From Sulfurovum sp. (lineage in GTDB: Bacteria; Campylobacterota; Campylobacteria; Campylobacterales; Sulfurovaceae), in assembly GCA_020525365.1 (NCBI GenBank), contig JAIZOF010000001.1:588381-652380 (forward strand): DNA of 64,000 bases, read 5' to 3'. Shown here one piece after another: positions 8,775 to 25,471 of this stretch. Every line of letters starts with the position of its first letter. The stretch's first letter is position 1. The notes beneath the pieces were generated by a model that was not told the origin of the DNA, searched no databases, and saw nothing but the letters and a program-made list of their open reading frames with translations. A program made the position numbers and the translations under genes.

Positions 8775-9134
<360 letters not shown>

Positions 9135-10304
9135 TTAGATACTACGCTTAAATTCTGGATAGGCCTCAAGTCCACACTCTTCAATATCAAGACCTTGTAC
9201 CTGCTCTTCATCATTTGCCCTAAATGGTATAAATTTATTAATAAGATAGAGTACAACAAAAGAGCTTGTAAATGCAAACAAACCTACTACTATCACTCCC
9301 TTTATCTGTGCCCACATAGAAGTCTCAGTAAAAATAGCTACGGCAATAGTTCCCCAAATACCATTAAGCAAATGAACAGAGAGTGCACCAACGGGATCAT
9401 CAAGTTTGAGTTTATCAAAAAATGAGACACCGTAAACAACAATAATGCCACCAATGGCACCAACATAAATAGGAGAGTAGATATCAAACATATCCGCACC
9501 TGCTGTTACAGATACCAGACCCCCAAGTGCACCATTTAAAATCATAGTGATATCAAATTTTTTGTACTGAATGTACATGATGAGTCCAACCATGATTGCA
9601 CCAGCAAGTCCTGCAGTATTGGTATTCATAATAGTAAGTGCAACAAGATCGGCATTTTCTTTAGTAGAAATAGATCCAACTGAACCACCATTAAAACCAA
9701 ACCAACCTATCCATAGAAGCAGAGCACCAAGTACAACCAAAGGGATATTGGAAGCAGGAATGACTCTGACTTGCCCCCCTTCTCCATAGCGTCCTTTTCT
9801 TGGTCCAATGATAAGAATTGCAGCCAACAGTGCCCATGCGCCAGTAGAGTGAATGACTGTACATCCTGCTAAATCATGCATAGTAGAGATATCGAAGATA
9901 GTCCCTTCTAGCATATTGGCTCCCCATGTAACATTGACTACCAGTGGATAGATGAAAGCTGCCATAACGATGGTGAACCAAATTAGAGGCACAATGCGTA
10001 TGCGTTCACTTACCCCACCACTCATAATATTAACCGTTTTCCCCACAAATGCCATCTGAAAAAGAAAGGCAGCCCATTTGCTCATACTTTCATTCTCCCA
10101 ACTACCAAAAGCAAGTGTATATCCAATCAGTAAAAAAGCCATAGAGGCTATAGCATAAATCATGGTATTAACTGTCAAAACAGCAGTCACATTTTTGGTA
10201 CGTACAAGTCCTGCTTCGAGCATGGCAAATCCTGGTACCATAAATATAATAAGGGTCATTGCAAAAAGTGCAAAGAAGGTATCAATAACATAATTTATTT
10301 CCAT
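9135..10304 (-). CDS. amt: Ammonium transporter (copy 1, short form)
   Basis: An Amt-family channel of 389 residues when started at the ATG at 10304, which has GGAG seven bases upstream; a longer in-frame start lies at 10349. It has the eleven-helix pattern, the pore twin histidines in DLAGCTVIHSTGA and LSVHLLNGIWG, and the FGFNGGS segment. Unlike copy 2 it has no signal peptide. It conducts ammonium into the cytoplasm and is expected to be blocked by the PII encoded next to it. The promoter region holds one of the nitrogen-linked palindromes. Sequence divergence from copy 2 is high, so this is not a recent duplication. Confidence 0.93.
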   Translation of the reverse strand: MEINYVIDTFFALFAMTLIIFMVPGFAMLEAGLVRTKNVTAVLTVNTMIYAIASMAFLLIGYTLAFGSWENESMSKWAAFLFQMAFVGKTVNIMSGGVSERIRIVPLIWFTIVMAAFIYPLVVNVTWGANMLEGTIFDISTMHDLAGCTVIHSTGAWALLAAILIIGPRKGRYGEGGQVRVIPASNIPLVVLGALLLWIGWFGFNGGSVGSISTKENADLVALTIMNTNTAGLAGAIMVGLIMYIQYKKFDITMILNGALGGLVSVTAGADMFDIYSPIYVGAIGGIIVVYGVSFFDKLKLDDPVGALSVHLLNGIWGTIAVAIFTETSMWAQIKGVIVVGLFAFTSSFVVLYLINKFIPFRANDEEQVQGLDIEECGLEAYPEFKRSI

Positions 10305-10377
10305 TTTTTCTCCAATACTACATAGATTTTTAATGATTAAGTATAGCAAGACAAAAGAGTAAATAGAAAGAGAGATA

Positions 10378-10394
10378 TGATTATTTTTTAGTCA
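10378..10394 (-). promoter_or_regulatory. Candidate nitrogen operator upstream of amt copy 1
   Basis: A 6-5-6 palindrome, TGATTA-N5-TAGTCA on the plus strand, one base off the consensus TGATTA-N5-TAATCA. On the transcribed strand an extended -10 (TGC then TATACT, 10345-10340) has its centre 43.5 bp from the palindrome centre, placing the site near -53. The same arrangement recurs at three other nitrogen promoters in the window. Confidence 0.7.
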
Positions 10395-10497: not shown

Positions 10498-10842
<345 letters not shown>

Positions 10843-10865: not shown

Positions 10866-10896
10866 AAGTATGAATCTATATTATAGATTCATACTT
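10866..10896 (-). repeat. 31-bp perfect palindrome between amtB and glnK
   Basis: Two 15-bp arms (10866-10880 and 10882-10896) around one central base. The right arm covers the last codons and stop of amtB copy 2. There is no U-tract, so it is not a standard terminator; an RNA-processing or stability hairpin setting the amtB:glnK ratio is one explanation. Confidence 0.8.
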
Positions 10897-12188
10897 CTTT
10901 CTCCATGTACTGCTTCATCAAGACCCATTTCTTCGGTCTCAGCATCCACTCTTGTGCCACCAGTAAGAGTACTTGCAATGTAATAAACAACGATTGTTCC
11001 AATAAGTGTCCAAAGACCAACGACAATAACAGACTCAATTTGTACTATAAGTTGTCCTACTCTATCCCCACTCTCTTTCATTGGTCCATCCCAGAGAAGA
11101 TCTTTGTCATTGAGTGCAAGAATGCCTGTCATTAGTGCACCCCAGAGTCCTGCAAGGAAGTGGATACCAAATGCATCAAGGGAGTCATCATAGCCAAATA
11201 TCTTTTTAAGTTTGACAACACCAAAAAACCCAACAAGAGAGCCACCAACACCTACAATAAATGCACCACCTACAGAGACAAAACCAGCTGCTGGCGTAAT
11301 GGCAACAAGACCTGCAACAATGCCAGAAGCAATACCAAGTAGTGTCGGCTTCTTATAGACAACCCATTCGATAAGCATCCATGTTAAGCCTGCCACAGAT
11401 GCAGCAACAGTTGTTGTTAGAAGTGCGACACCAGCAATGGCATTTGCACCAAATGCAGAACCGGCATTAAATCCATACCAACCAAACCAGAGGATAGCAG
11501 CACCTGCAGCAGTGAAGATGATACTAAAAGGTTTCATAGGCAGTTTTGGATACCCCGATCTTTTACCAACAAGAATTGCAAGCACTAGACCAGCCAAGCC
11601 ACCATTCATATGAACAACCGTACCACCAGCAAAATCAAGTGCACCTGCATCAAAGAGCAATGCACCATCTCCGCCCCAAACCATGTGAGTAATTGGTGCA
11701 TAGACGACAAGTCCCCAAAGTGCTACGATGATCATCCACGTAGAGAATTTCATGCGCCCAATAATGGAACCTGAAGCAATCGCAACAGTGATTGCTGCAA
11801 ATGTTCCCTGAAATGCAATAAATACGAATGTTGGATAGGTACCACTCAAGTCAGTCCATTTTGTATTTGAGAGGAAAAGATTTCCAAGACCACCAATAAA
11901 TTTTTGGATATCTGCAGATTCAGCAGTCCCAAATGCGAGAGAATATCCTGCAATAATCCATACAGTAAATGCCAGTACAAAAGCACCCATAACCATGGCA
12001 TAGGTATTTAGTGCATTTTTTGTCCTTGACATACCTGCATAAAAGAGTGCAAGACCTGCAGGGGTCATTAGCAGAACGAGTGCAGTGGAAATCATCATCC
12101 ATGCCGTATCGCCCGAATCAAGTTTATCTTCAGCCATAGCGACTATCGGTAGTAATGTTGCAAGTAGAGCAAAAATTTTTAATTTCAT
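10881..12188 (-). CDS. amtB: Ammonium transporter (copy 2, AmtB with signal peptide)
   Basis: A 435-residue Amt channel with a cleavable signal peptide (about residues 1-19, ending VAMA) as in enterobacterial AmtB. The Phe-gate region, twin histidines (FAGGTVVHMNGG and FGIHFLAGLWG) and GFNAGSAF are all present. It forms a unit with glnK copy 2 and has its own promoter with a 17-bp palindrome. An extended -10 (TGC then TATTAT) lies at 12231-12226. Relative to copy 1 this is the classical type. Confidence 0.95.
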   Translation of the reverse strand: MKLKIFALLATLLPIVAMAEDKLDSGDTAWMMISTALVLLMTPAGLALFYAGMSRTKNALNTYAMVMGAFVLAFTVWIIAGYSLAFGTAESADIQKFIGGLGNLFLSNTKWTDLSGTYPTFVFIAFQGTFAAITVAIASGSIIGRMKFSTWMIIVALWGLVVYAPITHMVWGGDGALLFDAGALDFAGGTVVHMNGGLAGLVLAILVGKRSGYPKLPMKPFSIIFTAAGAAILWFGWYGFNAGSAFGANAIAGVALLTTTVAASVAGLTWMLIEWVVYKKPTLLGIASGIVAGLVAITPAAGFVSVGGAFIVGVGGSLVGFFGVVKLKKIFGYDDSLDAFGIHFLAGLWGALMTGILALNDKDLLWDGPMKESGDRVGQLIVQIESVIVVGLWTLIGTIVVYYIASTLTGGTRVDAETEEMGLDEAVHGERSMNL

Positions 12189-12262
12189 ACTATAGTCCTT
12201 TATATGATTTTACCTTACAAAGGAGATAATAGCACGAGAAAGAGAGATTTTTATTATATTTT

Positions 12263-12279
12263 TGATTAATTTTTAATCA
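12263..12279 (-). promoter_or_regulatory. Candidate nitrogen operator upstream of amtB copy 2
   Basis: Perfect arms TGATTA and TAATCA separated by five A/T bases. The palindrome centre (12271) lies 42.5 bp from the centre of the extended -10 TATTAT at 12226-12231. It sits in the gap between amtB and the end of the NtrB-like gene. Confidence 0.75.
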
Positions 12280-12282
12280 TTA

Positions 12283-12981
12283 TTACATAAGAGGGATATC
12301 AAGTTTAATTCCATATTCTGAAAAAGAAGTGGTAATATGACACTTCTTGGAGATAGAGCGAATCTCTTCATCGGTATCAACATAGCGACCATTTGCTTCA
12401 ATGGAGAGTTGGACAATAGGAATCTTTTGTTTATCTATCACAATATATTCTCCAACAAGAAGCTTAAGTGTAATACAGATAGAGTTAGAAGTTCTATAAG
12501 ATTCAAGAATTTTTCGTAGTAACTTTGAAAAATGGTTTTGATCTATTTTGAGCTTAGGTATATCTGGGTCAGTCAGTAGTTGAAGATTATTTTTATTCTT
12601 TGTTCTAAAGAGTGCAATATTGGCTTCTAAAAGTAAATTAATATCAGTTATGGAAAGCTTCTCTCTTTCGAATGGTGTTGCCGCTTTGATGCGTGGTGTG
12701 TTGTAGAAACGAATAGATATCTGCTCTTTATTCTCATAACCTACGGTAATTGCATAGAAGTTAAATGCATTGTAGTTAAGTGTCAGTGTAGTGGTTTTGT
12801 AGCCAAAGTTTTGTGGTGCATAGGAGAGTGCAAGATCATAGAGTTCTTTTTTGGAGACATAACCAAAAAGTATCTCTGCACTGTTGTTCAAATAAAGTAT
12901 TTTCCCTTCATAGCTAAAGAGGACAAAGGGACTATTGTCCCAATCTACAAAAGACTGAAAATCAATCGATATGGTGTTCAT
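12283..12981 (-). CDS. NtrB-like PAS protein with degenerate kinase region
   Basis: A 232-residue protein with an N-terminal PAS-like domain (about 8-95, VLFSYEGKILYLNNSAEILFG) and a C-terminal half that resembles a worn-down GHKL ATPase domain (KIDQNHFSKLLRKILESY in place of the N-box). No phosphoacceptor His box and no clear ATP-lid glycines are visible, so it is unlikely to phosphorylate anything. It follows, and overlaps by 20 bp, the NtrC-like gene, and lies just upstream of amtB. I infer a signal-sensing partner of that regulator, analogous to NtrB in position but not in chemistry. Confidence 0.55.
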   Translation of the reverse strand: MNTISIDFQSFVDWDNSPFVLFSYEGKILYLNNSAEILFGYVSKKELYDLALSYAPQNFGYKTTTLTLNYNAFNFYAITVGYENKEQISIRFYNTPRIKAATPFEREKLSITDINLLLEANIALFRTKNKNNLQLLTDPDIPKLKIDQNHFSKLLRKILESYRTSNSICITLKLLVGEYIVIDKQKIPIVQLSIEANGRYVDTDEEIRSISKKCHITTSFSEYGIKLDIPLM

Positions 12982-13696
12982 GAATCTTTTTTCTTAGTGT
13001 ATTTCGGTTAATACCAAGTATCTGTGAAAGTTTAAGCTGAGAATAGAACTTTTTCAGACCAGCCTTAATTAGTGGCACCTCATAGAGATCGATATATTCC
13101 CTGTATCCATTGTTACCATCAAGATTTTCTAGAATATAGTGGTAGACAGCCTGCTGTATTTGCCTTTTGTTCATATTTCTACTCATGAGGTATTGATAGA
13201 CAGATTTTTTAAGTGTACGGCTATTTTGACTTAAATTAATTGGAATAGTATGAAGAGGGATATTACTATTTTCAATCATAAGATCATAACATGCTTGGTC
13301 AATAAATTTTTGTTTGATATAGGCAACATCCTCTAGACGCTCTTTAAGAGAAGGTAAATGATAGATGAAGGCAAAAAGAGAATCAATAGTTTGCTGATTT
13401 GCAACATAATTGGCAGTAGCAATGATTCGTTTGTTATCAAAGTTGAGTACTTCATGGTTGTGTAATTTTTCAATATCAGTGATGATGAGTTCATCGCTTT
13501 CTTGAAGTAGGGTCTCAACTGCTTCTTGGTCTGCTCCTGAAACTATTGGGGTATTTGGAAAAATGTATTGCACGAGCATCTTTTTACCAATATGTGGCTC
13601 TCCTATTACTACAGAGGAGACAAAAAGTGTCTTGGTTAAATTTAAACCTTTGATAATTTGCTGCACTTCTTCTGATTGTGTATAAAATAATTCCAT
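12962..13696 (-). CDS. Reduced NtrC-like regulator (degenerate AAA+ with Fis-type HTH)
   Basis: A 244-residue protein from the ATG at 13696 (a TTG lies one codon upstream). The first two thirds retain a shortened sigma-54-activator AAA+ core: GEPHIGKK near 35-42 in place of Walker A, LIITDIE as Walker B, and YHLPSLKERLEDV, the sensor-proximal segment of NtrC proteins. There is no receiver domain and no GAFTGA loop, so sigma-54 activation is not expected. The C-terminus is a Fis/NtrC helix-turn-helix (KLSQILGINRNTLRKKI). A TGATTA-N5-TAATCA palindrome lies just upstream. It is the best candidate to bind the five such sites in the window. Confidence 0.65.
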   Translation of the reverse strand: MELFYTQSEEVQQIIKGLNLTKTLFVSSVVIGEPHIGKKMLVQYIFPNTPIVSGADQEAVETLLQESDELIITDIEKLHNHEVLNFDNKRIIATANYVANQQTIDSLFAFIYHLPSLKERLEDVAYIKQKFIDQACYDLMIENSNIPLHTIPINLSQNSRTLKKSVYQYLMSRNMNKRQIQQAVYHYILENLDGNNGYREYIDLYEVPLIKAGLKKFYSQLKLSQILGINRNTLRKKIHEHHID

Positions 13697-13720
13697 CAAG
13701 GATCTTTTGTATAAAATATA

Positions 13721-13737
13721 TGATTAAAAAATAATCA
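13721..13737. promoter_or_regulatory. Candidate nitrogen operator between the NtrC-like gene and a DUF234-type gene
   Basis: A perfect TGATTA-AAAAA-TAATCA palindrome in the 92-bp gap between two divergent starts. It is only 25 bp from the regulator's start codon, closer than at the other sites, so autoregulation by promoter overlap is likely rather than activation from -53. A control role on the plus-strand gene cannot be excluded. Confidence 0.7.
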
Positions 13738-13788
13738 TTTTTTGAGTTAAAAGTATTATATCAAACTTGTGTTAAACTACTAGAAAAT

Positions 13789-14718
13789 ATGATTTTTCTA
13801 ATAAATAAAGAGAAGGAAAAGGCAATAAAAGAAGTATTTAATAGATTTTGTCACCATTACCCATTTCTCCCGCTAGAGAGTGCCATTGAATATTTTTCTA
13901 TACTTGGTGGCATGGAAGAGATGGTTACATTAGACTACTTTGAAGATATTGCGTCGATGGTTACCGTTAACTTTGTAGAGAACTTTACTCTTTTTAAACA
14001 ACAGATGCAACCATCCTATCTGCTTGAGCCCCCCTACTGTAAACTTTTAAGTGCTGTTGCTAGAGGGGATGGTAGAATGCATTCAGCACTACGTAAAGCA
14101 CATCTGAGCGAAGAGGTGGGGGAGTATATTATTAAAGAGTTGGTTGCACTTGGTATTCTACGTATAGAACCAAGTAGGGAAAAGCCCCTTAAGACCCATC
14201 CCAAGCACAAGCTCAAAAAATCACTTCGACATTACCGTATACAGGATAAACTTCGCTTTATTTCACCTTTTATGCGCTTTTGGTTTGGATTTATTTTTCA
14301 GTATCAAAATGACTTAATAAGAGGAGAGGGTAGGGTTTTTTTACAAAATTTTCATAATCATCATGAACGTCTATATACACTTGTTTATGAGCAGCTTTGT
14401 GATGTATTTTTGGTAAACTATTTTACCCAAATATCACCACTTGTGACCCATGGAAGTTATTGGAATCAGCATAGTGAGTTTGATATATTGGGAATGACAA
14501 GCGATAGCAGACTAGTATTGGGAGAGTGTAAATACAAAGATAGAAAAGTATGTAAAAATGAACTCAATAAACTTAGAGCAAAAGCAGAGAAATCCAGAAT
14601 AAAGGTAGATATTTATGTACTCTTTTCTAAGGATGGTTTTTCTAATGAATTATTGGGGATGAAAGATGAAAGATTATTACTATTTGACTTGAATGATATT
14701 CAAGGACTGTGTCATTAA
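13789..14718 (+). CDS. Stand-alone DUF234-type protein with PD-(D/E)XK-like C-terminus
   Basis: A 309-residue protein matching the C-terminal half of archaeal/bacterial 'DEXX-box ATPase' proteins (DUF234) but without the ATPase. A winged-helix-like middle (about 85-130) is followed by the ISPFMRFWFGFI segment and a nuclease-like core: EFDILG near 228, then VLGECKYKD near 243, giving the Asp...Glu-x-Lys order of PD-(D/E)XK enzymes. Its substrate is unknown. It is divergent from the NtrC-like gene and shares a short control region; whether it has anything to do with nitrogen is not shown. The 5' leader would be very short if a TAAACT -10 at 13773-13778 is used. Confidence 0.6.
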   Translation: MIFLINKEKEKAIKEVFNRFCHHYPFLPLESAIEYFSILGGMEEMVTLDYFEDIASMVTVNFVENFTLFKQQMQPSYLLEPPYCKLLSAVARGDGRMHSALRKAHLSEEVGEYIIKELVALGILRIEPSREKPLKTHPKHKLKKSLRHYRIQDKLRFISPFMRFWFGFIFQYQNDLIRGEGRVFLQNFHNHHERLYTLVYEQLCDVFLVNYFTQISPLVTHGSYWNQHSEFDILGMTSDSRLVLGECKYKDRKVCKNELNKLRAKAEKSRIKVDIYVLFSKDGFSNELLGMKDERLLLFDLNDIQGLCH

Positions 14719-16319: not shown

Positions 16320-18650
16320 CTATGATTCCTTTACAGTTTTGCTGCTACTAACTATTTGTTTACTGATCGCCTTCTCTTCTTCGTAAACCTTTACTCTTTC
16401 AAGATACCCACTAATTTCTACCTCTTCATAGGAGATCCCTTCTGGTACTGCTTTAGAGTGCAATTGTACGGCACATTGTTTATAATTAGGTTCAAATGAT
16501 TTAGGGTCAAATTCAGGGATAGTTACAGTGTTGATGAGTTGCTCATTGAAGTGAAACGGTATGAAAATATTTCCTTCACGGACAGTTTCACTGACTTTGA
16601 CAATGATATCCTCCACCTTTCCACGTGTACCCGATATAGCAATACGGTCACCACTTTTAACTTTGAGTTTAGTGGCATCTTTGGGATTGATATCGACCCA
16701 TGCTTCGGGTGCAAGATTATTTAGAATACTGATAGTGCCTGTCTTGGTACGGGTATGGAATTGCTCGACTGTACGACCAGTATTAAGCATAAGTGGTAAC
16801 CCTTTGCATTGTACTTCACTAAGCGGCCTCCAATCTACCGGCAGTAGTTGTGCCTTGCCACTTGGAGTTTGACAAGGCATCTCTTTGGTGTAGAGCCGCT
16901 TGGTTCCTTGAGGTGATTTTTTATTGCAAGGCCACTGAATGCCTCCTAATTCTTCAATAAGTTCATAATTCATGCCACTATAGTCACAGAGACGACCTTT
17001 GCTCACACGTCTAATCTCCTCAAAAGCATCTTGTGGTTTGTTTAGGTTTCCAAAGAGTAGTTCATGTATACCATCAAAATATTTAGAGAATTCCTTAATG
17101 ATAAAAAAGTCTGCTTTAGATTCTCCCATTGGATCAATAGCTTTTTTAGCATAGTTGCATCGCCGTTCACTATTAGTATAACATCCCTCTTTCTCACTCC
17201 AAGTTGCTGCAGCAAAAACCACATCAGCAACTTGTGCAGTATCAGACATAAATGAATCCTGTACTACCAATAGATCAAGTTTTTTAAGTGCTTCTCTTAG
17301 GGTATTTTGGTCAGGGTAGCTTACCAGTGGATTGGTGGCAACCACCCAAAGTGCTTTGATCTTACCACAATTGATTGCATCAATAATCTGTGGGTAGGCA
17401 TAGCCACGTTTGGTTGGTATGCGTTCTACAGGTACATTAATAATAGAGGCAAACTCCTCTCTTTCAGTATTATTCGTATAGCTTCGGTAGCCAGGAATAG
17501 ATGAAGTAAACCCAAATTCTCTTGTTCCCATAGCATTGCACTGCCCAGTAATGGACATGGGACCACTGCCTTCTTTGCCGAGATTTCCTGTAATGAGCGC
17601 AAGATTGCAGATTGCAGAGACAGTATCTGTGCCAAGGGTACTTTGGTTAACTCCCATTGTCCATGCACTCATGGCAGCATTGGCACTAGCATAGACACGA
17701 GCAAGAGTATAAAGCTCCTTGGTCTCAATACCTGTAATATGTGCAACCTCTTGTGGTGGATAGTTTTTCATAATATGCTTTCTAAATTCTTTGTATCCTT
17801 CGGTACGCTCTTTAATAAAGTTTTCGTTTTCCCAACCTTGTTCCATAATGATATAGCATAGTCCATTGATGAGTGCTAAATCTGAACGTGGTTTAAGTGG
17901 TACGAAAATATCTGCCATTTGTGAAGTCTTAGACTTTCGCGGGTCTATAACAATAATGGTTGGCTTCTTGCCAGTTTCTTTCTTATTTTTGGCAATATGG
18001 AGCTTTAAAATAGGGTGGTTATCAGCAATATTTGCACCAATTAGCATGATGACATCGGCTTTGGAGAAGTCCTCATAGCACCCCACTGGTCCATCGCTGC
18101 CAAAAGTTTGCTTATAACCCATGACAGCACTTGCCATACAAAGTGTAGTATTGCCATCGTAGTTGTTAGTCTGAAGTCCAAGCTGAACAAACTTACCTAG
18201 CATATAGAACTCTTCTGTCAGAAGCTGTCCAGTAGAAATTACTGCTACTGCACCATTGCCATACTTATGTTGAATACGCTTAAACTCTTCTGCTGTTTTG
18301 CTAAAAGCTTCATCCCAGCTAACAGGCGTTAGTTCTCCATTCTTTTGTAGCAGAGGGTGTACTACACGACTATTGGTATGCACCATTTCATGCTCACTTA
18401 AGCCCTTAGGGCAGAGCGTACCCATATTAACAGGGTGTTTTGGGTCACCTTTAGAGCAGACAGCCTTATTGTTTTTGATCCCAATATACATACCACACCC
18501 TACACCACAATAACCACAAGTGGTACGCACCCACTTATCTGGTATTTTGGTCTTGGCAATTTTACCAAAGAGAGGATCATCAACAAGGGCATACTTTTCT
18601 TCTCTAATATCAAATCCGAGAAATTTTTTTACTTTTTTGACTAAACCCAT
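16320..18650 (-). CDS. nasA: Assimilatory nitrate reductase, molybdopterin catalytic subunit
   Basis: A 776-residue molybdopterin oxidoreductase (from the ATG at 18650, which has AAGGA upstream; a longer start at 18698 lacks a site). The N-terminal [4Fe-4S] motif CGYCGVGC...CPKG is present, then the long bis-MGD domains and a C-terminal dinucleotide-binding beta barrel (DATKLKVKSGDRIAISG). There is no twin-arginine signal, so it works in the cytoplasm, reducing nitrate to nitrite. It is the last gene of the nirA - Fe-S/membrane subunit - nasA operon, with 68 bp before it. Substrate assignment rests on its operon with nitrite reductase and a nitrate transporter. Confidence 0.88.
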   Translation of the reverse strand: MGLVKKVKKFLGFDIREEKYALVDDPLFGKIAKTKIPDKWVRTTCGYCGVGCGMYIGIKNNKAVCSKGDPKHPVNMGTLCPKGLSEHEMVHTNSRVVHPLLQKNGELTPVSWDEAFSKTAEEFKRIQHKYGNGAVAVISTGQLLTEEFYMLGKFVQLGLQTNNYDGNTTLCMASAVMGYKQTFGSDGPVGCYEDFSKADVIMLIGANIADNHPILKLHIAKNKKETGKKPTIIVIDPRKSKTSQMADIFVPLKPRSDLALINGLCYIIMEQGWENENFIKERTEGYKEFRKHIMKNYPPQEVAHITGIETKELYTLARVYASANAAMSAWTMGVNQSTLGTDTVSAICNLALITGNLGKEGSGPMSITGQCNAMGTREFGFTSSIPGYRSYTNNTEREEFASIINVPVERIPTKRGYAYPQIIDAINCGKIKALWVVATNPLVSYPDQNTLREALKKLDLLVVQDSFMSDTAQVADVVFAAATWSEKEGCYTNSERRCNYAKKAIDPMGESKADFFIIKEFSKYFDGIHELLFGNLNKPQDAFEEIRRVSKGRLCDYSGMNYELIEELGGIQWPCNKKSPQGTKRLYTKEMPCQTPSGKAQLLPVDWRPLSEVQCKGLPLMLNTGRTVEQFHTRTKTGTISILNNLAPEAWVDINPKDATKLKVKSGDRIAISGTRGKVEDIIVKVSETVREGNIFIPFHFNEQLINTVTIPEFDPKSFEPNYKQCAVQLHSKAVPEGISYEEVEISGYLERVKVYEEEKAISKQIVSSSKTVKES

Positions 18651-18718
18651 TTTATTTTCCTTGAAATTGATACTTTTTAAATATGGTACTCTTGCCACTA
18701 CAGCTTTTGTACGTACAG

Positions 18719-20326
18719 TTAGTGCCGCTGATTTCCTGCAAAGAAATTTCCTGCCAGCCCAAGTGGTACAACTGTTCGATAAAAGAGGTAGCGTCCTACC
18801 AACTCACTGATAAATGCACCTAACATTGCAATTGCTAGTGTTATAACTGCTAAGTTTACTAGTCCACTAGAAATAAATAAAATAGCAAATAATGGCAGCG
18901 CTAGTGCAAAGGCTACGAGTGAATAAATCCTAAACTTTTTTACTCTACCAAAATGTTCCTGAAGTAGAATACGAGTACGGTTAAGTTGATAATAGAGAGG
19001 ATCTTTTTTATCAAGGTAGTGATAAAACATTACCTCTTCGAGGATTATTAATACCTGCCCCATACCTGCGAGTAGTGCAACTGAGAGCAATACCGTTGTG
19101 CTTTGTGCACTATTTGTGGAAAGTAGTACCGTGGAAATAAGCAAAAACCCCACATATCCTGACCCAAAAAAGCGCTTGGTTGTACTTTTGCGGTTCCAGC
19201 TTGGGCGTGCTTTGATACGGTAGATCATTGATTGAGCATAAATGCCATAAATACCTAGTATAAGGGTGATTATCTCAGTAAAAAGTAGTGTAAAGCCACC
19301 AATACCAATAAAATACATTCCTGCTACTATTGTAGCAAGTCCCGTATAGGTACCTAGTGCAATTGCTTCACGACTAAGCCATGAGGTGCGCCAGTTTTTC
19401 ATTGCCATCATTGCCTTGATGGGGCGTCCAAGATGGAGTGCTGAAAGTGGTAGACCGATGGCAGCAGGCAAGAAGGCTAAAATTGCTATGATTGGTGTTG
19501 GCTTAGGTAAGTTAAAACCAATTGAAAAAAGTATTTGCCCCAAACAAAGAGCAAGAAATGCACCTACGCTTATCTGTGTTAATACTGTCATAAACACTAG
19601 AGGGAGTTCGGAATGGGCAGGTTTAAGTAGGTGTTCATTGGCAACACGCATCTCTTCATCTTCGGGAATATTAGGTAAAGTATAGCGTGTAGTTGGTTTG
19701 GTGATATCTATATTGGGTAGATGTGGGGCAACCCCCTCTTTTGCCATCCCACTTTCGAGCCACTCATCCACTTTTACTGCTTCGATCTCAATGGCGCCAC
19801 CTGGGCATGCTTGTACGCATGCAGGAGTTTGATTTAGTTCAAGCTTGTCTGCACACATATGACACTTGGTAACAATGCCACGATCTGGATTGAAAACTGG
19901 CACCTCATAAGGACAGTTCCATGTACAGTATTGACAGCCAATACAGCTTGGATCATCATGAAAAACGATACCATTTTCTAGTTTGATATAGCTCTCAGTT
20001 GGACAGCCTCGAAGGCATTCAGGGTCAATACAGTGGTTGCAGCTCATAGAATTAAAAAGCTGAAGTGTATTGGGAAATATCCCCATCTCTATTTCACCCA
20101 CACGACGCCATTTAATATCAGGACTGTTGTTGTTCTGTTCGTTGCAGGCAACCTCACAGCAGTGGCAACCTACACAAGCAGTGGCATCGAAGTGGAAACG
20201 ATATTGCTCACCAGGATTTAGTTTGGGAATATCTATAGTATAGTTTCCGCACTGCATACCAGTGTTATTTTTATGGTTAATAAAGCTTTCTAGTGGTGTA
20301 TTTTTTGATAATGATTCATCAACCAT
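18719..20326 (-). CDS. Fused DmsB-like ferredoxin and DmsC-like membrane subunit for nitrate reduction
   Basis: A 535-residue fusion. Residues about 40-215 form a DmsB/NrfC-like polyferredoxin with four Cys clusters (CVGCHCCEVAC, CNHC...CLRGC, CIGCQYCTWNC, CHMC...CVQAC). From about 245 on there are eight hydrophobic helices of the DmsC type. Such subunits usually pass electrons from the quinol pool. Here it sits between nirA and nasA, so it probably feeds the cytoplasm-facing assimilatory nitrate reductase from menaquinol instead of from NADH or soluble ferredoxin (inference). The start codon lies 28 bp after the nirA stop. Confidence 0.85.
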   Translation of the reverse strand: MVDESLSKNTPLESFINHKNNTGMQCGNYTIDIPKLNPGEQYRFHFDATACVGCHCCEVACNEQNNNSPDIKWRRVGEIEMGIFPNTLQLFNSMSCNHCIDPECLRGCPTESYIKLENGIVFHDDPSCIGCQYCTWNCPYEVPVFNPDRGIVTKCHMCADKLELNQTPACVQACPGGAIEIEAVKVDEWLESGMAKEGVAPHLPNIDITKPTTRYTLPNIPEDEEMRVANEHLLKPAHSELPLVFMTVLTQISVGAFLALCLGQILFSIGFNLPKPTPIIAILAFLPAAIGLPLSALHLGRPIKAMMAMKNWRTSWLSREAIALGTYTGLATIVAGMYFIGIGGFTLLFTEIITLILGIYGIYAQSMIYRIKARPSWNRKSTTKRFFGSGYVGFLLISTVLLSTNSAQSTTVLLSVALLAGMGQVLIILEEVMFYHYLDKKDPLYYQLNRTRILLQEHFGRVKKFRIYSLVAFALALPLFAILFISSGLVNLAVITLAIAMLGAFISELVGRYLFYRTVVPLGLAGNFFAGNQRH

Positions 20327-20353: not shown

Positions 20354-22273
20354 TTAGAGCTCTTTTAGCGCAACAATTAATTCAGAAAATACCTGCGCAC
20401 GTTCACTTTTATTTTCATGAGTCATATTATAGATAATTTCAGAGAGTTTAGGTGGTACAGCAATGTTGAGTCTACTTACTTCATCGCGTCTAATTTTGCG
20501 TGGACGGGCAAATGTGGGAGTGAGTCCATCAATGGCTTTAAAACGTTTTTCTCCTGTGAGAAGCTTAAAGAGTTTTAGTCCGAATGTAAAAAGCTCATAC
20601 TCCTCTCTGCGCCCACTTTTAGGTTCTCTGTCTAGCTCAAAGAAAATATCTATTCCTAATTTGTCATTTAGAATATAGTTTATTTTGGTGTAAAATGCCA
20701 ATGCTTGATAGCTATAGTTTCGACTTAAAAAGTGTGTTTCAAAGTTCTCAAAAGTTTCACCACGTTTTTTAAGTGTGGCATAGGCTTTGAGTAGGTACTT
20801 GATATGGTATTTGGCTTCAGTAACAGGAAGTGACTTATGTAGTGTATGCCCCTCTTTAGCATGATAGGTAATTTTGCCACCAAGGAATAGATGGACACCA
20901 TCTACGCGATTACCATCAGCATCTTTAGCTTTACATCCCTCAAAACCAATGTCAGCAATACCATGTATCCCGCATCCCTTAGGACAGGCTGACCAGTTCA
21001 TACGTACTGCAGCATTCTCAATAGCAATTTCAGAGTTAAGAAAGTGTGCCATTTCGATAGCATCAGATTTATTAGGGATAACCCCATAGCTACAAGTAGC
21101 TGTCCCTGCACAGGCAATCATGTCAGTAAAATAGAGATTATTGTACTTGGCATATCTCTGTATAATATCGGTTTGCTCAAATAGGGTAGTTTTTTCTGCA
21201 TTGATGTGGATAATATAGAGATTTTGGTCGTACGTGAGACAGATGCCCCCACTGCCATATTTGGTTGCAACTTTGGCTACTTCTATCATATCTGTACCAC
21301 TAAAGATACCAGAGGGGACAATAAGCTTATAGGCAAAATTACTATCTTTAAGTAGTACACGATTTGTACCCAGTGCAATATTTTGTGACTGCACCATGGT
21401 GATACCTGCGGTTGTAAAGTCTATGCCTGCCTCTTTCTTGACTGCCTTAATAAGCGTATTGATGCCAATATCATTAAGCAAGAAAACTAGACGGTTTTTA
21501 TTTCGATTATCACGGTAGCCATAGTTTTTAAATACTGTTAGTAGTGCAGTAAAAAATGTTGGAACCTCCTCTTTGGTGACAAAGAGATTAGCATCTTTTG
21601 CTTGCATACCAACACGTGCTCCAAGGTAGATATTGAATCCAAAAATACCATTTTTTTGTGCCAATACAAAGTTACAGTCATGCCCAAAAATATTACAAGA
21701 GTTAGAGAGAGAGCCAAGAATACCGGTATTGAATTTTCGCGGTAATACTGAAATCCATTCAGGGTTTTCGCCAATGATATCTTGTAGCTTATCTATAATA
21801 GGCTTGGTTTCAATAATGTTGTCATAAGAGATACCATCAAGTGGGTCAGTAACGATATTTCTTGGGTTATCGACACCGGTTTGAAAAGTACTAATACCTA
21901 CTTCTTTGAGTTCACGTAAGACTTTAGCAATATCGCCTATGGATAGGTAACGAAGTTCTACTTGCATACGAGTGGTGATATCGATATAGTTATTGCCATA
22001 CTTTTGTGCCACTTCACCAATACGGATTGCCTGTATATTGGTTAGTTTTCCCCCAGGAATACGTACACGTAACATAAAGTTCTCACCTTTATCGAAGAGT
22101 CCAAAACACTTTAGAAAATAGGTGCTATCTTCTTTGGAAAGATTCTCATACCCACCAGAAGCAATCTTATCAAGTTTTTTGTAGACCTCCATTGGGTCTT
22201 TTAGGGTTTTGGTTGTTTCTATTTTGTTAACTTTTTTACTTCGAGCTTCCAAGGCTTTTGCTAATACTTCCAT
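20354..22273 (-). CDS. nirA: Siroheme nitrite reductase (ferredoxin type)
   Basis: A 639-residue member of the nitrite/sulfite reductase family that reduces nitrite to ammonium with six electrons. Two ferredoxin-like half domains are present; the siroheme/[4Fe-4S] cysteines occur as CAGTATC (near 385) and CPKGC (near 430). The protein is longer than usual NirA because of a C-terminal extension of roughly 110 residues rich in charged and aromatic residues, of unknown role. Sulfite reductase is the alternative, but the operon with nasA and the divergent narK favour nitrite. First gene of the operon; operator and extended -10 lie upstream. Confidence 0.88.
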   Translation of the reverse strand: MEVLAKALEARSKKVNKIETTKTLKDPMEVYKKLDKIASGGYENLSKEDSTYFLKCFGLFDKGENFMLRVRIPGGKLTNIQAIRIGEVAQKYGNNYIDITTRMQVELRYLSIGDIAKVLRELKEVGISTFQTGVDNPRNIVTDPLDGISYDNIIETKPIIDKLQDIIGENPEWISVLPRKFNTGILGSLSNSCNIFGHDCNFVLAQKNGIFGFNIYLGARVGMQAKDANLFVTKEEVPTFFTALLTVFKNYGYRDNRNKNRLVFLLNDIGINTLIKAVKKEAGIDFTTAGITMVQSQNIALGTNRVLLKDSNFAYKLIVPSGIFSGTDMIEVAKVATKYGSGGICLTYDQNLYIIHINAEKTTLFEQTDIIQRYAKYNNLYFTDMIACAGTATCSYGVIPNKSDAIEMAHFLNSEIAIENAAVRMNWSACPKGCGIHGIADIGFEGCKAKDADGNRVDGVHLFLGGKITYHAKEGHTLHKSLPVTEAKYHIKYLLKAYATLKKRGETFENFETHFLSRNYSYQALAFYTKINYILNDKLGIDIFFELDREPKSGRREEYELFTFGLKLFKLLTGEKRFKAIDGLTPTFARPRKIRRDEVSRLNIAVPPKLSEIIYNMTHENKSERAQVFSELIVALKEL

Positions 22274-22347
22274 AGTAGTAAAATACACTCCTGAGATGAA
22301 ATTGAGGCTATTATACCAAAGAGCAATAGAAATTTATAGTCATAAAT

Positions 22348-22364
22348 TGATTAAAAAATAATCA
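22348..22364 (-). promoter_or_regulatory. Candidate nitrogen operator facing nirA
   Basis: Perfect TGATTA-AAAAA-TAATCA. Its centre (22356) is 43.5 bp from the centre of an extended -10 (TGG then TATAAT) at 22315-22310 on the minus strand. It is one of two copies in the nirA/narK divergent region. Confidence 0.8.
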
Positions 22365-22426: not shown

Positions 22427-22443
22427 TGATTAAAAAATAATCA
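22427..22443 (+). promoter_or_regulatory. Candidate nitrogen operator facing narK
   Basis: A second perfect copy, 79 bp from the first. Its centre (22435) is 43.5 bp from the centre of a TATACT -10 at 22476-22481 on the plus strand, matching the spacing at the nirA and amt promoters. Confidence 0.8.
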
Positions 22444-22511
22444 TTTTATTTTAATAAATACAGTTAAGACTGATGTATACTTCTACTATTCATAATTTTA
22501 AGGAGAATAAA

Positions 22512-23792
22512 ATGGCTGGCTTTAAAGCACTCAAAGGACAAGGAGACACAAAGACCCTTTTTGCAGCATTTCTCTACTTTGATTTTAGTTTTATGGTATG
22601 GACAATGCTTGGACCTTTGGCAACTGAGATTAGTGAGTCGATGGCGATGAATGGAGGGGGACTGACTGCAGGACAGACTGCAACACTACTTTCTATTCCT
22701 ATTCTCTCAGGAGCATTGCTACGTATTGTACTTGGTTTTTTTGTTGACAAGGTTGGTCCCAAAAAGACAGCAATTTCAGCACAGCTTATTGTTATTTTGG
22801 CACTTTTCTATGCCTATAGTCGAGGAATAACCATTACCTATGATGAACTTCTTTTCGTAGCACTAGGACTTGGTTTTGCAGGAGCATCATTTGCAGTGGC
22901 ATTGCCTCAAGCAGGACAATGGTATCCACCAAAGCTTCAAGGAGTTGTTCTTGGAATTGCTGGTGCAGGGAATATTGGGGTAGTTGTTGATTTTCTATTT
23001 GCACCAAAGATTGCAGAGAAGTGGGGTTGGGAAGCAGTTTTTCTAGTTGGTGGATTGCTCTCTTTTGCCGTACTGTTTGCCTATATTCTTATGGCAAAAG
23101 ATGCACCTGAATCTATCTATAGACCAAGAGTTAAGAAAATGAGAGACTACTGGAAGCTATTAAAAGATCGTGATAGTTGGTGGTTTATGCTCTTTTATGC
23201 AGTAAGTTTTGGAGGATTTGTTGGATTTGCCAACTATATGAAGGTTTATCTTATGAATACCTATCAGGTGGACATGAAGGCATTTGGGTTGGACATATTT
23301 AATGAGCCAAATGTTAAAGTTATTGCTGGATATTTTGGAGCACTGACAATCTTTGCTGGAGCAATTCTTAGACCAGTCGGTGGAAGTATTGCTGACAAGA
23401 TGGGTGGGATCAAGGCACTATATATCTTTTTTGGTATGGTAACAGTGCTAGTAGCACTGAATGGGTTTATAACATTACCATTTTGGATAGCTATTATAGT
23501 ACTTTTTTTCATTATGGCAAGTCTTGGTATGGCAAATGGTGCAGTATTCCAACTTGTACCACAGCGTTTTGGTAAAGATATTGGTATTATGACAGGACTT
23601 ATTGGTGCAGCAGGTGGAATTGGCGGTACCTTTCTTGTCAAAACACTTGGTTGGGCAAAAGGAACTTTTGATAGTTACAGTATTGGCTTTTTTATATTTG
23701 CTGGATTGGTACTGATTGCTATTGGTGCAATATCTCTAGTTAAAACAAAATGGAGAACTACATGGGGCGCCAATGCTGGTGGAATGATCTAA
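22512..23792 (+). CDS. narK: Nitrate/nitrite transporter of the NarK/NasA MFS family
   Basis: A 426-residue twelve-helix MFS transporter. The start at 22512 is chosen for its AAGGAG; an upstream in-frame ATG at 22473 overlaps the likely -10 box. Nitrate-signature glycine-rich stretches occur in helix 5 (GLGFAGASFAVALPQAGQWYP) and helix 11 (GIMTGLIGAAGGIGGTF). It should import nitrate for the divergent nas operon. It is followed 44 bp later by a PP2C-kinase gene, a pairing also known for nasA in Pseudomonas. Confidence 0.92.
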   Translation: MAGFKALKGQGDTKTLFAAFLYFDFSFMVWTMLGPLATEISESMAMNGGGLTAGQTATLLSIPILSGALLRIVLGFFVDKVGPKKTAISAQLIVILALFYAYSRGITITYDELLFVALGLGFAGASFAVALPQAGQWYPPKLQGVVLGIAGAGNIGVVVDFLFAPKIAEKWGWEAVFLVGGLLSFAVLFAYILMAKDAPESIYRPRVKKMRDYWKLLKDRDSWWFMLFYAVSFGGFVGFANYMKVYLMNTYQVDMKAFGLDIFNEPNVKVIAGYFGALTIFAGAILRPVGGSIADKMGGIKALYIFFGMVTVLVALNGFITLPFWIAIIVLFFIMASLGMANGAVFQLVPQRFGKDIGIMTGLIGAAGGIGGTFLVKTLGWAKGTFDSYSIGFFIFAGLVLIAIGAISLVKTKWRTTWGANAGGMI

Positions 23793-23836
23793 AATTTAAA
23801 GACTTTTAGGAATAATCAAGAGTGAAAAGGAAATTT

Positions 23837-25471
23837 ATGTCTAAACAGAATATTGAAACTTCCGTCTTTTCTCTTGCCAAAGGTACCCAATTAACCGGCG
23901 ATGACTATGCTGAGGTAAAGGTACTGGAAAATATCACCATTGCAGTTGTTTGTGATGGTGTAGGGTCTGCAATTTTAGGTGCTGAAGCAGCAAAGCGGAC
24001 TACACAGTTTTTAGTACAATCGCTGAAGAATAGACCACGTAGTTGGGGTATGGAGAAATCCATTAAGCACTTCATTGAGAAGATAAACCATGTGCTTTAT
24101 ATGGAGTCAGTGGAACAGTATGAGCGTCAAGAGTTAGTAACAACCCTCACACTAGTAGTGATTGAAGGGGATAGGCTTTATGGAGCAAATGTTGGAGATA
24201 GTCGTATCTATCTAGAGCGTAATGGGCAGTTTTCTCAGTTATCTAGTGATCACAGCATGAATGAAAAGGGAATGGAGAATGTACTTACCTCTGCCATTGG
24301 ACTTGAGGAGTATGTAGAGCCATACTATTTTGAGAATAATCTACAGCCCAAAGATCGTATACTACTTTGCAGTGATGGGCTCTATAATGAACTAACCCAC
24401 AAAGAATTGGTTTCTGGAATATATATTGGAGCCTCTTTTCTTGTAAAAAGGGTAAGTAAGAAATATGAGGACAATCTACCCGATGATGCAACAGCAGTAG
24501 TTGTAGAGATTAATCATCTTGATCCACGCTTGAAACTTAAACAGACAGAATTGATTATACAGGAGTATTACAGAAAAGATGAAATTATTGATGGCTACAG
24601 ACTGCTTAAGCCACTAATACAGAATGAACGTACTTGGCTATGTGAAAACAAAGGGGTACAGTATGTTATTAAGTTTTCTCCCCATGAGGCACTGGATAAT
24701 GAGGTTATACTTGATCATTTTGTCAAAGAGGTTTGGATGGCACAACGCCTTAAGGCAGGTTTTTTTCCTAAAGCAGTTATTCCCAAGAAACGTACTCATC
24801 GATACTATATTATGAGTTATGTAAAAGGTGTACCACTTAAAAACTTGATTGCCAAGAAGCCACTTTCTGTTGATCTTGGAATTGATTTAGTACATTTTTT
24901 ATTGAAGATGGCACAGTATTTAATTAGGCAAAATCTAGTACATGGAGACATTAAGCCTGAGAATATTATTGTTACCAAGAGGAGGGAAAAAACAGTTTTT
25001 AAAATGGTTGACTTTGGTTCCATTACCGAAGCCTATTCGGATGTAACACGTGCCGGTACACCGAGTTATTTAGCACCTGAACGATTTTTACAAGCACCAA
25101 TTACAGAGCAAACAGAAGTATATGCTATTGGAGCAACACTTTATGAAGCATTAACGCAAAAATTTCCATTTGGAGAAATAGAGCCATTTCAGACACCAAA
25201 ATTTGAGAAAATACCTAAATATCCAACTAAATTGAATCCAAAGATTCCTGAGTGGCTAGAAAGTGTGATGTTGCGTGCAATAGAGACCAGCACAGATAAA
25301 CGTTACCACAACTACTCTGAGATAATTTTTGAGATAGACAACCCTGAAAAAGTACAACCCTATTTTGATAAAAGTATTTCATTTATTGAGCGGCATGAGA
25401 AGATGGTTTATAAAATCGGTTTTATTCTAATGTTCATGCTTAATATTATACAATTTCTTTTTATATACTAG
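23837..25471 (+). CDS. PP2C phosphatase fused to Ser/Thr protein kinase with C-terminal membrane anchor
   Basis: A 544-residue bifunctional protein. Residues about 1-235 are a PP2C phosphatase (CDGVGSA, GANVGDSRIY, LLCSDGLYN, DDATAVVVE). Residues about 250-495 are a eukaryotic-type kinase: the catalytic loop HGDIKPENI, DFGS in place of DFG plus extra, and an APE-like LAPERF. A single membrane helix ends the protein. The start is set at 23837, with AAAAGGA upstream. It follows narK, and homologues near nasA in pseudomonads share this fusion, so a link to nitrate uptake or assimilation is likely. The substrate is unknown. Its 3' end overlaps that of mltG by 45 bp. Confidence 0.88.
   Translation: MSKQNIETSVFSLAKGTQLTGDDYAEVKVLENITIAVVCDGVGSAILGAEAAKRTTQFLVQSLKNRPRSWGMEKSIKHFIEKINHVLYMESVEQYERQELVTTLTLVVIEGDRLYGANVGDSRIYLERNGQFSQLSSDHSMNEKGMENVLTSAIGLEEYVEPYYFENNLQPKDRILLCSDGLYNELTHKELVSGIYIGASFLVKRVSKKYEDNLPDDATAVVVEINHLDPRLKLKQTELIIQEYYRKDEIIDGYRLLKPLIQNERTWLCENKGVQYVIKFSPHEALDNEVILDHFVKEVWMAQRLKAGFFPKAVIPKKRTHRYYIMSYVKGVPLKNLIAKKPLSVDLGIDLVHFLLKMAQYLIRQNLVHGDIKPENIIVTKRREKTVFKMVDFGSITEAYSDVTRAGTPSYLAPERFLQAPITEQTEVYAIGATLYEALTQKFPFGEIEPFQTPKFEKIPKYPTKLNPKIPEWLESVMLRAIETSTDKRYHNYSEIIFEIDNPEKVQPYFDKSISFIERHEKMVYKIGFILMFMLNIIQFLFIY

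Follow-up and report, generated by a model that had tools for sequence, protein, structure and literature searches.

NtrC of Rhodobacter capsulatus and Caulobacter lacks the GAFTGA motif and is active at sigma-70 promoters, keeps its receiver domain, and needs aspartate phosphorylation together with an active NtrB (PMC10274813). Enhancer-binding family members of the TyrR/VpsR type also lack a working GAFTGA and are found at sigma-70 promoters. In NifL/NifA, a non-phosphorylating PAS + GHKL protein binds the activator, and GlnK acts on NifL through its GHKL domain, which does not hydrolyse ATP (PMC9866876). The regulator–partner pair encoded in a Sulfurovum sp. genome of 1.47 Mb resembles each of these systems in part. 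It shares with Rhodobacter and Caulobacter NtrC the loss of GAFTGA and predicted sites set relative to the sigma-70 -10 box, but here the whole phosphorelay is gone, with neither a receiver nor a phosphorylated aspartate, and the AAA+ core is smaller. The TyrR/VpsR type differs in having other sensory domains and ligands and no NtrB-derived partner. NifL/NifA can serve as the model for the mechanism, but NifA keeps sigma-54 activation and NifL still binds ATP/ADP, whereas the pair derives from NtrB/NtrC and its contacts are proposed by analogy. No paper on the pair was found in the largely non-subscription literature searched; neither was a nitrogen regulator of the Campylobacterota, and the genome paper of Arcobacter butzleri remarks that NtrC/NtrB homologues are apparently missing there (PMC2147049).

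Within the window, the 64,000-nt stretch of DNA that was analysed, the regulator gene (12962-13696, minus strand; 244 aa from its ATG, or 245 aa from an alternative TTG start at 13699) overlaps by 20 nt the gene of its partner (12283-12981, minus strand; 232 aa). Two amtB/PII sets follow on the same strand: the ammonium transporter gene amtB-a (10881-12188), PII-a of the GlnB/GlnK type (10498-10839), a second ammonium transporter gene, amtB-b (9135-10304, likely ATG start at 10304), and PII-b (8775-9116). Both reading frames and the adjoining amtB-glnK genes are thus as described in the initial annotation. A nitrate cluster in the same window comprises a nirA-like assimilatory nitrite reductase gene (20354-22273, minus strand, likely ATG start at 22273), downstream of it the genes for an Fe-S/NrfD-type protein (18719-20326) and a NasA-like nitrate reductase (16320-18698), and a narK-type nitrate/nitrite transporter gene (22512-23792, plus strand). 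Directly 3' of narK, this cluster also encodes a fusion protein of a PP2C-type phosphatase and a Ser/Thr kinase (23822-25471, plus strand). Divergent from the pair and having its upstream region in common with it lies a gene for a DUF234 protein (13789-14718, plus strand), a homologue of which occupies the same position in another genome of the genus (L137).

Sequence, structure prediction and comparative genomics support the regulator as an NtrC derivative consisting of a pseudo-AAA+ core and a Fis-type HTH. Pfam and NCBIfam searches gave sub-threshold matches only, to the C-terminal HTH and to NtrC, and a profile of 27 regulator homologues, 23 of which matched HTH_8, hit NtrC1 and Fis in a PDB profile search. 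Profile-profile comparison with genuine NtrC (hhalign) produced a collinear alignment (probability 99.8, E 1e-27) that covers NtrC from column 144 through its last column; since it begins only there, the receiver domain is absent. GAFTGA was found in none of 68 regulator homologues (0/68), both arginine fingers (FRxDLxxRL region) are deleted in all 68, and the segment joining the Walker A lysine and sensor I has lost about 50 residues relative to NtrC (median length 52 vs 101). The Walker A motif (GxxxxGK) retains its first and last glycines in 68/68 and its lysine in 65/68 homologues, with degenerate middle residues. No Walker B Asp-Glu pair is present in the matching strand of the aligned regulators, as judged by eye because automatic column matching of this motif was unreliable. 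The HTH residues N, R, T, L, and K, by comparison, are invariant in 68/68. The predicted structure (mean pLDDT 89.7) has its best fold matches in PspF, NtrC1, and NtrC4 (Z ~14.8, rmsd 2.4-2.9, ~172 residues). The initial annotation, which had named structure prediction and comparison with NtrC profiles as ways to check it, had described a shortened AAA+ core with a Fis-type HTH but without receiver and GAFTGA, and this description is borne out. The regulator looks like an AAA+ protein that is no longer able to act as a sigma-54 machine.

The same three lines of evidence support the partner as an NtrB derivative with a PAS domain and a dead catalytic domain. Single sequences gave only a weak PAS match below the curated Pfam cut-offs, although PAS models are matched recurrently, if weakly, among the homologues, and NtrB, NR(II), is matched by three of nine family members. 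Because regulator and partner both fall below these cut-offs, Pfam alone would miss the finding. Comparison with NtrB profiles gave an alignment over the first part of the catalytic domain, with the DP(S/D)(L/I)P motif inside it (hhalign, E 5e-7), and the predicted structure (mean pLDDT 80.6) consists of a PAS domain and a GHKL-type domain. The top fold match of the latter is the NtrB catalytic domain 1r62 (Z 15.5, rmsd 2.5, 120 residues), tied within 1 Z unit with other kinases. This degenerate C-terminal domain had been missed by the initial annotation, which correctly described a PAS domain and no phosphoacceptor His. The partner contains no HExxNP phosphoacceptor box and no DHp domain, the gap of only ~15 residues between PAS and catalytic fold leaving no room for one. 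Its DNGPG box reads ANGRY in the window and in most members of the genus, the G2 box is missing in the window and genus partners, and the N, G1, and G2 boxes are not intact. The partner looks like a dead kinase; neither a canonical H-box in it nor GAFTGA in the regulator was found on alignment.

The likeness of the pair to NtrB/NtrC lies in the sequence and fold ancestry of both proteins, their gene pairing, a 17-bp palindromic box, and a regulon of glnA, amtB, PII, and nitrate genes. By function the pair is not a member of the NtrC/NtrB families, the defining features having been looked for: it lacks the receiver, GAFTGA, the arginine fingers, the phosphoacceptor domain, and intact ATP-binding boxes, and this genome has no rpoN. 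Nor was a second, full NtrB/NtrC pair found elsewhere among the genome matches, which contained no other GAFTGA protein or NtrB. Matches to PF00158 were considered as a hidden NtrC and rejected; none has GAFTGA, and by sequence these frames look like general AAA+ proteins of the Clp, RuvB, or MoxR type. rpoN is missing in 34 of 37 genomes of the genus and present in most other families. The loss of GAFTGA as a consequence of rpoN loss was rejected, as many rpoN-bearing genomes carry the same GAFTGA-less regulator; the change is thus an old one, and the disappearance of sigma-54 did not precede it.

The palindrome TGATTA-N5-TAATCA occurs in four exact copies in the window, where shuffled sequences give 0.04 expected, and in five exact copies in the whole genome, every one upstream of nitrogen genes. 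These lie upstream of glnA, amtB-a (12263-12279), and the pair itself, and two are in the divergent nirA/narK region, facing nirA (22348-22364) and narK (22427-22443), respectively. A copy with one mismatch (TGATTATTTTTTAGTCA) lies upstream of amtB-b (10378-10394). Other one-mismatch sites, one between groES and a tRNA-like sequence (genome positions 218476-218492, beyond the window numbering) and those inside coding regions, were set aside as probably due to chance. The 37 genus genomes contain 117 sites, counted from the listed rows, compared to 3 for a reversed control pattern. Among 38 site loci of the genus chosen irrespective of promoter layout, ~30 precede nitrogen genes, and about six more precede a gene of the outer-membrane porin type. 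In six loci (L128, L132, L145, L157, L158, and L168), the palindrome is found at this porin-like gene near a second conserved gene, and in all but L168 the spacing to the -10 box is 31-32 nt; it is possible that the gene encodes a nitrogen-regulated outer-membrane channel. In other families, the palindrome is present upstream of amtB, glnA, PII, and narK; exact sites are scarce or absent in some pair-bearing families, and one family has TGCTTA-N5-TAAGCA instead of the genus motif. The 17-bp layout of the palindrome is that of the NtrC box (TGCACCAnnnTGGTGCA, 6-5-6 geometry; PMC8743547). Two site variants upstream of the regulator, TGATTA-N5-TAAGCA (L057, 2978-2994) and TGCTTA-N5-TAAGCA (L059, 3967-3983), may represent intermediates linking the NtrC box with the motif of the genus.

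The promoter layout around the site is constant. In 126 site directions picked without regard to promoters, a TATAAT-like hexamer (5/6 matching) starts 31 nt past the site in 27 and 32 nt past it in 19, compared to a mean of 2.9 (sd 2.0) directions at other offsets; related sequences are not independent, so there are fewer separate observations than these counts imply. Taken by themselves, the 32 directions belonging to other families have the same peak, with 10 at 31 nt. The aligned promoters carry an extended TGn -10 and no -35 signal. If the -10 start is taken as -12, the centre of the palindrome falls at -52 or -53. In the window, the predicted -10 boxes are TATTAT for amtB-a (12226-12231, minus strand), 31 nt after its site, and, each at 32 nt, TATACT for amtB-b (10340-10345, minus strand), TATAAT for nirA (22310-22315, minus strand), and TATACT for narK (22476-22481, plus strand). 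Sequence and comparative genomics together support the palindrome as the mark of a nitrogen-assimilation regulon with this layout. The layout points to an activator that would touch the sigma-70 polymerase, rather than to a sigma-54 enhancer, and the term activator is derived here from the position of the site. The action on sigma-70 promoters proposed in the initial annotation agrees with the absence of rpoN and with the predicted spacing.

We consider it about 70% probable that the pair derives from NtrB/NtrC and controls transcription as a switch responding to nitrogen status, with PII reading, gating by the partner, and sigma-70 activation included, and every testable point of the initial annotation, which had proposed a rebuilt switch of this kind, speaks in its favour. 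A regulator dimer would bind the palindrome centred near -52/-53 and from there help the housekeeping sigma-70-type polymerase at extended -10 promoters lacking a -35 box, activating glnA, amtB, PII, nirA, and narK. Through the copy that closely follows its own promoter, the regulator would repress itself. The partner would phosphorylate nothing and may instead gate the regulator through protein contact, reading nitrogen status from PII uridylylated by GlnD. The most specific version, a phylum-wide pseudo-two-component nitrogen switch in which a dead kinase passes the PII signal through contact with a dead AAA+ factor, now a conventional dimeric activator of housekeeping promoters working from a fixed -52 site, is put forward tentatively, at somewhat under even odds.

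The gating of the regulator by contact and the reading of PII are more weakly inferred, with NifL/NifA as the model. The genome encodes a full-length GlnD (825-aa frame), and the T-loop tyrosine is kept in both PII proteins (Tyr51 in PII-a), so the upstream nitrogen sensor is intact. Alternatively, the partner might sense a signal of its own, redox or a small ligand, via its PAS domain and be unconnected with PII, as NifL itself uses a PAS domain for redox (PMC9866876) and the contact between partner and PII is proposed by analogy. We regard this as unlikely, as GlnD and Tyr51-bearing PII are kept, the PII genes are in the same cluster, and the genome yielded no further transcription factor that reads PII.

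The exact palindrome of the pair itself (13721-13737) lies 24 nt before the regulator ATG, and the predicted -10 box of the operon (TATAAT, 13755-13760, minus strand) is 17 nt upstream of it, placing the site at ~+11 to +27 of the pair's transcript. In most genus loci the own site is found 14-31 nt before the regulator ATG. Its position downstream of the predicted promoter suggests autorepression, and 13721-13737 is likely to be the operator, in line with the autoregulation through this palindrome that had been proposed initially. The same position could be taken to mean that the regulator mainly represses the nitrogen genes and is released under nitrogen limitation. Elsewhere, however, the site precedes the promoter core, at the constant distance of 31-32 nt from a -10 box without a -35, a constancy that is needless for a repressor and needed by an activator touching the polymerase, making general repression improbable.

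Of 60 relatives, 52 carry the regulator, and exactly these 52 also have the partner, even though the genes are unlinked in many of them. Among 30 loci of the genus, 29 have the partner next to the regulator and 28 have amtB after it. Several other families keep the two genes apart, and where this was read (L061, L065, L067, L071) the regulator lies between slyD and fabD. The reading frames are unbroken in nearly all genomes carrying the pair. Among 91 near-complete genomes of the phylum, the partner is found in most families, and two large families are almost without it (three weak partial matches). Among relatives of known high completeness, both genomes without AmtB are also without the pair, and two genomes with AmtB have no pair. 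Titled relatives of the regulator come from Sulfurovum and other Campylobacterota, to which the family is likely restricted among the matches listed. A locus titled Arcobacter sp. (L196) carries the regulator, and the partner was not found within the DNA of this locus. In addition, a protein without Pfam match (L074, 4685-5512; L113, 772-1416) adjoins the pair in one family and stands behind the palindrome in another. The pair is an old family across free-living Campylobacterota, which corrects the one-genome view of the initial annotation.

From self-linkage, this co-occurrence, and the NtrC-like site geometry, we infer that the regulator binds the palindrome. That the palindrome belongs to a different regulator, e.g. 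of the CRP/FNR or LysR family, while the NtrB/NtrC remnants are decaying or otherwise employed, would fit the several families in which regulator and partner lie away from nitrogen genes, but is very improbable given that 27 of 30 loci of the genus have the site in the promoter of the pair itself, the 6-5-6 geometry unlike the N4 spacing of FNR sites, and the conservation of both proteins in 52/60 genomes with invariant HTH residues and frames unbroken in nearly all.

That the predicted site keeps one distance from ordinary promoters of ammonium, glutamine, and nitrate genes in many Campylobacterota suggests that a nitrogen switch has been rebuilt here and has so far been overlooked. If this is true, both halves of a phosphorelay have been turned together into a contact-based switch, and the steps of a move from sigma-54 to sigma-70 could be compared between living families. 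The pair would supply the missing nitrogen regulator of bacteria that are abundant at vents and in sediments, together with a ready list of target promoters.
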